Below are positions 40,906-43,880 of a stretch of 64,000 nucleotides of DNA, piece by piece. Under the pieces are notes generated by a model. The model worked only from the letters and a program-made list of their open reading frames with translations, searched no databases and was not told where the DNA came from. The stretch comes from Mycolicibacterium rufum (GTDB taxonomy: Bacteria; Actinomycetota; Actinomycetes; Mycobacteriales; Mycobacteriaceae). The DNA lies in NCBI RefSeq assembly GCF_022374875.2, contig NZ_CP092427.2, forward strand, positions 2,666,001 to 2,730,000, in the 5' to 3' direction. The translations under genes and the position numbers were made by a program. Each line of letters begins with the position of its first letter. Positions within the stretch are counted from its first letter, which is position 1.

Positions 40906-41661
40906 ATGGGTGCGTACAACGCGAAGATGCGCGTCTGGCGCGGTGACGCCTCCGGCGGGGAACTGAAGGACTACACCGTCGAGGTCAACGAGGGCGAGGT
41001 CGTCCTCGACATCATCCACCGGTTGCAGCAGACCCAGACCGGCGACCTCGCGGTCCGCTGGAACTGCAAGGCCGGCAAGTGCGGGTCCTGTTCGGTGGAG
41101 ATCAACGGCCGTCCGCGCCTGGCATGCATGACGCGGATGTCGACGTTCGGGGAGGACGAGACCGTCACGGTCACCCCGCTGCGGACGTTCCCGGTGATGC
41201 GGGACCTGGTCACCGACGTGTCCTTCAACTACGAGAAGGCCAGGGAGATCCCGTCGTTCACGCCGCCCAAGGACCTGCAGCCCGGTGAGTACCGGATGCA
41301 GCAGGAGGACGTGAACCGCAGCCAGGAGTTCCGCAAGTGCATCGAGTGCTTCCTGTGCCAGAACGTCTGCCACGTCAACCGTGACCACGAGGAGAACAAG
41401 AAGGCGTTCTCCGGTCCGCGGTACCTGATGCGGCAGGCCGAGCTCGACATGCATCCGCTCGACGTGCACGGCCACCGCGCCGAGCAAGCCCAGGAGGAGA
41501 ACGGCCTGGGCTACTGCAACATCACCAAGTGCTGCACCGAGGTGTGCCCCGAGCACATCAAGATCACCGACAATGCGCTGATCCCGATGAAGGAACGCGC
41601 CGCCGACCGCAAGTACGACCCGGTGGTGTGGCTGGGCAACAAGCTGTTCCGGCGGAAGTAA
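40906..41661 (+). CDS. sdhB: Sdh1 iron-sulfur subunit SdhB
   Basis: A 251-residue iron-sulfur protein. The [2Fe-2S] ligands are in NCKAGKCGSCSVEINGRPRLAC; the two other clusters are bound by CIECFLCQNVC and CNITKCCTEVCPEH. Rv0247c is the equivalent. It passes electrons from SdhA FADH2 to the membrane subunit. The stop is followed after only four bases by the cysteine-repeat gene. Confidence 0.94.
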   Translation: MGAYNAKMRVWRGDASGGELKDYTVEVNEGEVVLDIIHRLQQTQTGDLAVRWNCKAGKCGSCSVEINGRPRLACMTRMSTFGEDETVTVTPLRTFPVMRDLVTDVSFNYEKAREIPSFTPPKDLQPGEYRMQQEDVNRSQEFRKCIECFLCQNVCHVNRDHEENKKAFSGPRYLMRQAELDMHPLDVHGHRAEQAQEENGLGYCNITKCCTEVCPEHIKITDNALIPMKERAADRKYDPVVWLGNKLFRRK

Positions 41662-41665
41662 GCGC

Positions 41666-42109
41666 GTGACCGGCGCGCCGGTGGCCGCCGACAACGTCGC
41701 CGTCGCGGGCTCGATCTCGACGTCGGGCAGTGCCGCGGTCGCCGGCTCGATCGGCACCGTCAACAGTGCGGCCGTCGCCGGATCGATCGCCACCGCGGGC
41801 AGCGCCGGCGTGGCCGGATCCGTCGCGACGGCGGGCAGCGCCGCGGTGGTGCGGGCCATCGGCACGGCAGGCAGCGCGGGCGTCGCCGGATCGATTGCGA
41901 CCGCCGGCAGCGCCGCGATCGCCGGGTGCGTGCTGGCCGTGCTGTGTATCGCCTGTCGCGGCTGCCTGGCCTGTCTGGCCTGCATCGACTGCGCCCGGTG
42001 CCGGGCCTGCGTCGGCTGCGTCAGCTGTGAGGACTGCATCGGCTGCGTGGGGTGCGTGAACTGCACCGGGCTGCGCAACGCGGTGGGTCTGCGCGACGTT
42101 CACGCGTGA
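41666..42109 (+). CDS. Repeat protein with cysteine at every third residue, 147 aa, unknown family
   Basis: I do not recognise this protein. Residues 12-83 are six 12-residue repeats of the type AVAGSIATAGSA, themselves made of two six-residue halves. Residues 84-88 start a seventh repeat (AIAGC), and from Cys94 to Cys133 there is a cysteine at every third position without exception, 14 in all, plus Cys88. A short polar tail follows. The six-residue periodicity recalls left-handed beta-helix proteins, in which a three-residue cysteine period would stack into columns. It has typical mycobacterial GC-rich third positions, and repeats differ by synonymous codons, arguing for a real protein. It begins (GTG 41666) four bases after sdhB and has no good ribosome site, so it is probably co-translated with the Sdh1 operon. 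Confidence 0.68.
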   Translation: MTGAPVAADNVAVAGSISTSGSAAVAGSIGTVNSAAVAGSIATAGSAGVAGSVATAGSAAVVRAIGTAGSAGVAGSIATAGSAAIAGCVLAVLCIACRGCLACLACIDCARCRACVGCVSCEDCIGCVGCVNCTGLRNAVGLRDVHA

Positions 42110-42140: not shown

Positions 42141-43880
42141 ATGACTGCACGCCCCCTGCTGCTCAACCCGAACGCGTTCGACCCGCAGCGGCTCGACCCC
42201 GAGTCCCGCCGTCAGCTGCGCGCCCTCATCGAGTGGTTCGAGCAGCGCGGCAAGACCCGACTGCTGCGCGACGACCTGGACGCGGCGTGGGTGTCGGACT
42301 TCCTCGCGTTCGTGAAGTCCGAGCGGCTGTTCGCGACGTTCCTGACGCCGTCGGAGTTCTCCGGCGGCGACCCGAACAAGCGGTGGGACACCTCCCGCAA
42401 CGCGGTGCTCAGCGAGATCCTTGGGTTCTACGGGCTGTCCTACTGGTATGCCGAGCAGGTCACCATCCTCGGGCTCGGACCGATCTGGCAGAGCGACAAC
42501 GTCAAGGCCAAGGAGAAGGCGGCCGCACAACTCGAGGCCGGCGGGGTGATGGCGTTCGCGCTGTCCGAACGCGCGCACGGTGCCGACATCTACAACACCG
42601 ACATGGTGCTGACCCCGGCCGCGCAGGACGACGACGAAGGCGTGGTGTTCCGGGCTTCGGGCGAGAAGTACTACATCGGCAACGGCAACGTCGCGGGCAT
42701 GGTGTCGGTGTTCTCGCGGCGCAGCGACGTCGACGGCGCCGACGGGTACGTCTGGTTCGTCGCCGACAGCACCCATGAGAACTACGAGCTGATCGGCAAC
42801 GTCGTGCACGGCCAGATGTTCGTCAGCAATTTCGCGCTGCACGACTACCCGGTGTACGAGGAGGACATCCTGTGCACCGGCCCCGACGCGTTCTCGGCGG
42901 CGCTGAACACCGTCAACGTCGGCAAGTTCAACCTGTGCAGCGGCTCGATCGGCATGTGCGAGCACGCCTTCTACGAGGCGATCACCCACGCCAACAACCG
43001 GATCCTCTACGGCAATCCGGTCACGGACTTCCCGCACGTGCGGGCCAGTTTCGTCGACGCCTACGCCCGCCTGGTCGCGATGAAGCTGTTCAGTGACCGC
43101 GCCATCGACTACTTCCGCAGCGCCGGCCCCGAGGACCGCCGCTACCTGCTGTTCAACCCGGTAACCAAGTCGAAGGTCACCTCCGAGGGCGAGAAGGTCG
43201 TCACCCTGCTGTGGGATGTGCTGGCCGCCAAGGGGTTCGAGAAGGACACCTACTTCAGCCAGGTGACCCGGCTGATCGGGGCGCTGCCGCGGCTGGAGGG
43301 CACCGTGCACGTCAACGTCGCGCAGATCTTGAAGTTCATGCCGAACTACATGTTCAACCCGGCCGAGTACCCCGAGATCGGCACCCGTGACGATCCGGCC
43401 GACGACGTGTTCTTCTGGTCGCAGGGCCCCGCCCGCGGTGCGTCGAAGGTGCGCTTCGCCGACTGGGCGCCGGTCTACGAGCGGCACACCGGCATCCCGA
43501 ACGTCGGGCGCTTCTTCGAACAGGTCGCCGCGTTCAAGGAGCTGTTGAGCTCCGCCGCCCCCGACGCCGATCAGCAGGCGGATCTGGATTTCGTGCTGGT
43601 GATCGGCCACCTCTTCTCGCTGGTGGTCTACGGCCAGCTGATCCTCGAGCAGACGGAGCTGACCGGCCTGGACGCCGACCTGGTGGATCAGATCTTCGAC
43701 GTGATGGTCCGGGACTTCTCCGCCTACGCGGTCGCGCTGCACGGCAAGCCGAGCTCGACGGCCGACCAGCAGGCGTGGGCGCTGTCGGCCATCCGCAAGC
43801 CGGTGACCGACTCGGCCCGCTTCGACCGGATCTGGGGCGAGGTGGCCGCCTACGACGGCGTCTACCAGATGCAGCCCTGA
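42141..43880 (+). CDS. fadE5: Acyl-CoA dehydrogenase FadE5
   Basis: A 579-residue acyl-CoA dehydrogenase of the large class. Marks are AFALSERAHGADIYNTDM (the FAD-contacting segment), ASGEKYYIGNGNVAGMVSVFSRR and the C-terminal flavin domain FNLCSGSIGMCEHAFYEAITHANNRILYG. M. smegmatis and M. tuberculosis FadE5 (Rv0244c) are broad-chain-length enzymes of fatty acid beta-oxidation. I use ATG 42141; TTG 42132 is possible. It sits between the Sdh1 operon and the TPP locus as in M. smegmatis. Confidence 0.9.
   Translation: MTARPLLLNPNAFDPQRLDPESRRQLRALIEWFEQRGKTRLLRDDLDAAWVSDFLAFVKSERLFATFLTPSEFSGGDPNKRWDTSRNAVLSEILGFYGLSYWYAEQVTILGLGPIWQSDNVKAKEKAAAQLEAGGVMAFALSERAHGADIYNTDMVLTPAAQDDDEGVVFRASGEKYYIGNGNVAGMVSVFSRRSDVDGADGYVWFVADSTHENYELIGNVVHGQMFVSNFALHDYPVYEEDILCTGPDAFSAALNTVNVGKFNLCSGSIGMCEHAFYEAITHANNRILYGNPVTDFPHVRASFVDAYARLVAMKLFSDRAIDYFRSAGPEDRRYLLFNPVTKSKVTSEGEKVVTLLWDVLAAKGFEKDTYFSQVTRLIGALPRLEGTVHVNVAQILKFMPNYMFNPAEYPEIGTRDDPADDVFFWSQGPARGASKVRFADWAPVYERHTGIPNVGRFFEQVAAFKELLSSAAPDADQQADLDFVLVIGHLFSLVVYGQLILEQTELTGLDADLVDQIFDVMVRDFSAYAVALHGKPSSTADQQAWALSAIRKPVTDSARFDRIWGEVAAYDGVYQMQP

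Follow-up and report, generated by a model that had tools for sequence, protein, structure and literature searches.

Pentapeptide-repeat and left-handed hexapeptide beta-helices are beta-solenoids built of short units with small inward residues, and metallothioneins such as mycobacterial MymT are small proteins rich in C-x-x-C. As a class, beta-solenoids are known, and so are coils of 12 residues and single ladders of cysteine. The inward-residue register of the antifreeze protein of the beetle Tenebrio molitor (TmAFP) was taken from the excerpt of PMC8038014, and a cysteine ladder is cited, in an excerpted source, for the leucine-rich-repeat protein InlJ. The gene described here lies in a 64,000-nucleotide stretch of Mycolicibacterium rufum (contig NZ_CP092427.2, positions 2,666,001 to 2,730,000; hereafter the window) and encodes a conserved protein in which a repeat half passes into an unbroken track of cysteines at every third residue. 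No paper on cysteine at every third residue, or on a mycobacterial cysteine-rich beta-solenoid, was found in the open-licence literature searched, and as far as that literature goes a bacterial tripeptide solenoid with a cysteine-only core is undescribed. The gene and the parts of its product are as follows.

41666..42109, + strand: gene for a tripeptide-repeat protein of 147 residues, with GTG as start and TGA as stop codon (open frame, relatives, dN/dS 0.07–0.25)
41699..41914, + strand: residues 12–83, six 12-residue repeats with putative inward register V-S-T-S (translation, conservation register, model strands)
41915..41944, + strand: residues 84–93, transition with Cys88 (translation; model confidence is lowest nearby)
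41945..42064, + strand: residues 94–133, 14 cysteines at every third position, four per 12-residue coil being taken as inward (translation, conservation, lag-4 periodicity)
42065..42106, + strand: residues 134–147, conserved tail TGLRNAVGLRDVHA, read as a cap coil with L136, A139, L142 and V145 inward (motif after the track)

A preliminary description, made from the letters alone, had reported six 12-residue repeats over residues 12–83, and a frame four bases after sdhB with 14 period-three cysteines plus Cys88. The open frame and its translation agree on both counts. The GTG start is four bases past the sdhB stop at 41661, and the protein runs from a short N-terminus through the six 12-mers, the Cys88 transition and the cysteine track to the tail, with a degenerate seventh 12-mer merging into the track. 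Cysteines stand at residue 88 and then at 94, 97 and so on to 133, the latter 14 being at exact period three without a break. A pattern of eight TGY codons at nine-base steps was found within the window only in this gene (seven overlapping matches) and in 0 of 100 dinucleotide-preserving shuffles.

Conservation was read from relatives in a named collection, in which relatives are encoded at 196 places, the best 80 of which were retained. Alignments A3 and A4 held 57 and 76, respectively, of the 81 sequences (window plus 80 named loci). In the 57-member alignment, 36 columns were invariant or nearly so, 26 of them at residues 1 mod 3 (S28, T31, S34, V37, S40, T43, S46 and onward, then the cysteines, then L136). 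Mean entropy was 0.38 bits in this conserved phase versus 0.98 and 1.44 in the other two, a gap reached by none of 20,000 shuffles, also with the cysteine columns excluded. The conserved phase extends across both halves, and therefore the 12-mer is four triplets, V-A-G, S-I-A, T-A-G and S-A-A, with mostly G or A in the third triplet position of the repeats. On the aligned sequences the cysteine track keeps the register of the repeats with C first in the triplet, and the tail extends it through L136, A139, L142 and V145. The supposed switch from a six-residue to a three-residue period thus gives way to one three-residue register in both halves. Nine track-cysteine columns were invariant among the 57 members.

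Within the genus, 110 loci were compared, L199–L202 (4 of 114) having been dropped as truncated or lacking the cysteine track. In all 110, the track is succeeded by the motif G-[LV]-R-x-x-x-G, and the longest unbroken track counts 10 cysteines in 2 loci, 11 in 15, 12 in 75, 13 in 7 and 14 in 11. The members from Actinomycetospora (9/9) and some of those from Pseudonocardia (2/5) lack one triplet ahead of the tail, the N-C-S step. Period 12 is evident in the repeats by inspection. For the cysteine half, hydrophobicity of the outward residue pairs in the family profile peaked at lags of four (0.34) and eight triplets (0.31), as against −0.11, −0.06, −0.01, −0.16, −0.49 and 0.15 at lags 1, 2, 3, 5, 6 and 7, all values being given without a shuffle control.

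The structure check proposed in the preliminary description was carried out as two AlphaFold jobs, and both returned a beta-solenoid with 12-residue coils at moderate confidence, with strands spaced 12 residues apart over the repeats. When the models were set against solved structures (VIA comparison), the TmAFP structure 1EZG ranked third for the first model, below TibA and antigen 43, and top for the second, tied with antigen 43. We consider the predicted 12-residue-coil beta-solenoid probable; the four cysteines of each coil would then point inward and form four thiol columns. The earlier suggestion of a solenoid with stacked cysteine columns therefore stands as a prediction, and its left-handed hexapeptide form does not, the models and the register favouring a 12-residue coil with four three-residue sides. 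Another tripeptide-repeat fold, either collagen-like or a polyproline-II helix bundle with small residues at every third position, would also account for the frequent G or A in the third triplet position, and tripeptide-repeat polyproline-II antifreeze proteins exist (excerpt of PMC10235112). Weak collagen matches of the window protein and two relatives point the same way, yet they fall below cut-off (Pfam Collagen, 14.1 bits for the window protein versus a gathering score of 27.2), and both AlphaFold jobs together with the 12-residue outward periodicity of the cysteine half make such a fold improbable.

We propose that the protein may be a cytosolic rod, a right-handed beta-solenoid of tripeptides with four per coil (12 residues per turn), in which the first residue of every tripeptide would face the core. 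V-S-T-S would fill the core of the N-terminal coils, followed by three to three and a half coils with four cysteines each and by a final coil that forms a hydrophobic L-A-L-V cap, the result being four parallel columns of buried thiols. The thiol-packed half would be the working part, a compact reservoir for thiophilic metal ions (Cu+, Zn2+ or Fe) and/or for reversible oxidation, and the N-terminal coils would serve as folding nucleus and spacer. This proposal, a cytosolic cysteine-cored solenoid with a metal or redox function of its thiols, is offered tentatively as a whole, and that function, taken together with fold and location, is likewise possible rather than probable. In a purely structural alternative, the same solenoid would carry cysteine as a small, well-stacking core residue, and the rod would be a scaffold or binding surface without thiol chemistry; this too is a substantial possibility.

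Several observations bear on the choice between a thiol sink and a purely structural stack. Residue volumes for the core calculation were standard-table values. The four residues placed inside averaged 434–438 Å3 in five repeat coils and 434 in two all-cysteine coils, as compared with 452 and 475 for the pair of coils at the transition and 522 for the cap; V+S+T+S sums to 434.1 Å3 and four C to 434.0. This equality suits a structural role, as does the outside of the cysteine half, where two of the four sides present mostly V, L, I, A and G. The five-residue cysteine ladder in the beta-helix of the fucoidan lyase FdlA is likewise described as stabilising (excerpt of PMC9410043). On the other side, V-S-T-S would do as well for packing, yet nine cysteine positions of the track never vary among the 57 aligned members, which speaks for working thiols, and an all-cysteine track of at least 10 triplets is present in 110/110 loci. 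A thiol sink for metal or redox chemistry is slightly favoured over a purely structural cysteine stack.

The proposal has a number of points to answer. Because the volumes are equal, the cysteine coils seem packed without space reserved for metal, and given that the FdlA ladder is thought structural in the same excerpt, cysteine may be a packing residue only. The number of cysteines varies, from 10 to 14 per unbroken track with 12 in 75/110 loci. Model confidence was moderate by predicted local distance difference test (pLDDT 72 and 71), with a predicted template modelling score (pTM) of 0.49, and the five models per job span pLDDT 52–72 and 56–71. The junction is weak (pLDDT 56–61 over residues 71–90, first model), as is the tail with its putative cap coil (59 in the first model, 45 in the second). 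Finally, three relatives with few or no cysteines (P0014, P0061 and P0072) open with a hydrophobic stretch before the repeats.

That a real, conserved protein under purifying selection is encoded here was evident from comparison with 18 relatives (18/80 named loci, those aligning gap-free). The ratio of nonsynonymous to synonymous substitution rates (dN/dS) was 0.07–0.25, and differences from the window protein summed to 283, 294 and 1078 at codon positions 1, 2 and 3. Cysteine codons were mixed (219 TGC, 53 TGT), and purifying selection acts on the repeats and the cysteine half alike. The earlier reading of synonymous variation as a sign that the protein is what is conserved was borne out by the third-position excess and the mixed TGC/TGT usage. 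In high-G+C, repetitive sequence one might suspect an open frame arisen by chance, or a repeat conserved as DNA; this reading is rejected because of the codon-position pattern and dN/dS, is further contradicted by relatives across genera, and retains next to no probability.

Location was judged from fusions and N-termini. Three diverged metagenomic proteins (P0038, P0039 and P0041) carry a CYTH domain followed in frame by the whole solenoid; identity to the first is 69 and 79 percent for the other two, and the Pfam cut-off is exceeded by two of the three and narrowly missed by one. These fusions suggest that the solenoid protein is cytosolic, and no signal-like sequence was seen by eye at the N-terminus of the window protein. 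A non-cytosolic solenoid, stabilised by disulfides across the core or between coils like those of the beetle antifreeze protein, was weighed against this location. TmAFP has one C2–C8 disulfide per coil (excerpt of PMC8038014), and the hydrophobic N-terminal stretch of P0014, P0061 and P0072, which follows an arginine-rich start, would fit export, being perhaps a membrane anchor. This alternative is unlikely given the CYTH fusions, starts coupled to genes of cytosolic enzymes and the plain N-terminus of the window protein. P0072 is labelled as originating from a Dormiibacterota metagenome-assembled genome. Single in-frame joins were also seen to a cyclase piece (P0043), a hexapeptide transferase (P0049) and a permease end (P0019), which may be due to chance or assembly, and in P0064 the solenoid is joined in frame to a further C-terminal stretch; insertion into genes is a further suggested explanation for all four, beside assembly or chance.

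Relatives were most frequent within the genus, where 114/248 genomes matched at 1e-3 (105/233 among good assemblies), usually with one strong match per genome. The preliminary description had held that an unconserved frame or a dN/dS near 1 would mark a chance frame; the spread through these 114 genomes and the dN/dS values above are the opposite of this. Among the best 80 of the 196 named places, M. chubuense and M. chlorophenolicum carried the nearest relatives (95 percent), further ones came from other Mycolicibacterium and from Mycobacterium, and those of Pseudonocardia and Actinomycetospora had a best segment at 57–65 percent. When 61 relatives were searched, 28 genomes gave a match, four of them weak in other genera and one weak within the genus; the weak-match genome G035 was left out of the retrieved set. 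At class level, 57/394 genomes matched at 1e-3; the 45 that lie outside the genus matched weakly (2e-9 at best), and none of these was counted as a relative. At order level, matches at 1e-8 were found in 25/397 genomes and 4/85 genera, and at phylum level, matches at 1e-6 in 10/396 genomes. Two phylum-level matches from another class had both repeats and cysteine track, and two others (G1265 and G1306) had repeats without the track.

No match was found in plasmids or GenBank phages at 1e-5, and Pfam and NCBIfam held no fitting family, with just collagen-type and other matches far below cut-off. PADLOC also gave no match for the window protein, and a defence gene was rejected on that ground. 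The impression that no described family has this layout was upheld by these three resources, one phage family of unknown function matching the cysteine track. A mobile element was likewise rejected, there being no common flanks by eye (22/110 loci), no plasmid or phage match and usually a single strong match per genome. Across the 110 loci (L031–L053 and L113–L198, including the window), this usually single-copy gene changes genomic place repeatedly and yet is often translationally coupled to the preceding gene.

The genes on either side in the window are the following.

40906..41661, + strand: sdhB, upstream neighbour ending four bases before the gene start (NCBIfam succinate dehydrogenase/fumarate reductase Fe-S subunit)
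42141..43880, + strand: downstream neighbour, acyl-CoA dehydrogenase-like, 579 residues (weak NCBIfam acyl-CoA dehydrogenase matches, far below cut-off)

Neighbour genes in the 110 loci were called by a simple script rather than annotation. Tree labels, per-clade start distances, named loci and the Pseudonocardiales list derive from earlier gene calls, in which SDR neighbours numbered 42 as against 44 finally and coupled starts 56 as against 60. A start codon of the gene lies within −20 to +40 of the stop of a co-directional upstream gene in 60/82 loci; examples of overlap are L031 (with the sdhB stop), L043 and L158 (each with the SDR stop) and L135 (with the SDR start). In 44/110 loci an immediate neighbour is an SDR gene (25 upstream, 19 downstream), and a functional link between the two is possible. 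The SDR genes were grouped as family F0 (e.g., L033, 6932–7672). A peptide-type ABC-transporter ATPase gene lies directly upstream in 12/110 loci and an acyl-CoA dehydrogenase gene at most three genes upstream in 14/110. No shared partner gene was seen in 14 Pseudonocardiales loci.

An accessory role at succinate dehydrogenase Sdh1, as first suggested by the position after sdhB, would fit the tight spacing in the sdh group, where in 16/18 loci the distance from sdhB stop to gene start is −20 to +40. However, the wider contexts do not sustain this role: sdhB lies directly upstream in just 18/110 loci, and elsewhere the neighbours are SDR, peptide-transporter, acyl-CoA dehydrogenase or other genes. 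These sdh loci form one gene-tree group (one change; support 84, under the 95 mark), and contexts in general track the gene tree (24 changes versus 91.5 in shuffles), so the sdh placement looks like one relocation. sdhB itself was present in 10/10 genomes searched; among its 11 loci, no solenoid gene follows it in the five with the downstream side read (the rest being on the reverse strand), and none of the 11 had a match to the acyl-CoA dehydrogenase encoded in the window. The association with Sdh looks incidental, and an Sdh1 accessory factor is very unlikely.

The gene might instead act as a cysteine-responsive attenuator, ribosome stalling at its cysteine codons controlling the downstream gene, since regulatory cysteine-rich short open reading frames are known in mycobacteria (excerpt of PMC9094748, citing Canestrari 2020). 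In the window a co-directional downstream gene, as an attenuator requires, is present, but in 63/108 family loci the closest gene downstream is encoded on the other strand, and purifying selection extends over both the repeats and the cysteine half. Attenuation is therefore even harder to credit than a role at Sdh1.

If the predicted fold is true, bacteria own a 12-residue, antifreeze-protein-like tripeptide solenoid whose core switches from V-S-T-S to all cysteine at constant volume, and with it a natural scaffold of four stacked thiol columns that is directly testable for metal or redox chemistry. The rule of one inward residue in three would also become readable in otherwise unannotated low-complexity proteins. 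Such a cysteine-only core could hold a thiol stack that binds metals, senses oxidation or merely stiffens the rod. It is doubtful that the cysteine half is a thiolate-lined channel, four cysteines per rung, in which metal ions or metal-sulfur units line up in a one-dimensional chain as a metal wire or store. We know of no genetically encoded metal wire or store inside a beta-helix, and there is a small chance that a metal-filled core would be something categorically new.

Among described proteins, pentapeptide-repeat and hexapeptide beta-helices differ from the window protein in that its unit is three and its predicted coil twelve residues. Pfam gave no match of the window protein to the pentapeptide-repeat or hexapeptide families, and hexapeptide families in Pfam and NCBIfam gave none up to E 10. 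Metallothioneins also gave no Pfam or NCBIfam match, and the window protein is, unlike them, a predicted ordered solenoid. The mycobacterial polycysteine attenuator frames (excerpt of PMC9094748) share a cysteine-rich frame in a mycobacterial operon; the gene described here differs in encoding a full conserved protein, in a family often lacking a co-directional downstream gene.

Long period-three cysteine tracks like that of the window protein were found in the phage family phrog_15341 (unknown function) and in five IMG/VR phage sequences (L283–L287). The phrog_15341 profile match (5.8e-8) covers window residues 81–137 and profile positions 29–85 of 276, that is, the cysteine track alone. L284 (4022–4507) has a 12-residue unit of the type SDC KDC VYC VGC and matches phrog_15341 at 8.4e-20. 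A lag-4 peak was present in the two longest phage tracks (L284 and L286) and absent from the three shorter ones (L283, L285 and L287). Neither a V-S-T-S half nor a GLR tail was seen in the phage tracks, unlike in the window protein, and the relation may be one of composition only.

TmAFP (1EZG) has, and the window protein is predicted to have, 12-residue coils in which every third residue points inward. The TCT/TxT ice-binding motif of each TmAFP coil (consensus from the excerpt of PMC8038014) is absent from the window translation, and 1EZG was not among PDB sequence matches up to E 10 in either single-sequence or profile search. The insect protein is secreted and has a C-S-C-A core, in contrast to the V-S-T-S or all-cysteine core proposed here. 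FdlA, according to the excerpt of PMC9410043, has stacked inward cysteines in a right-handed beta-helix, as predicted for the window protein; in FdlA they form one column of five within a large enzyme, whereas the window protein would have four columns and a core of cysteine only.
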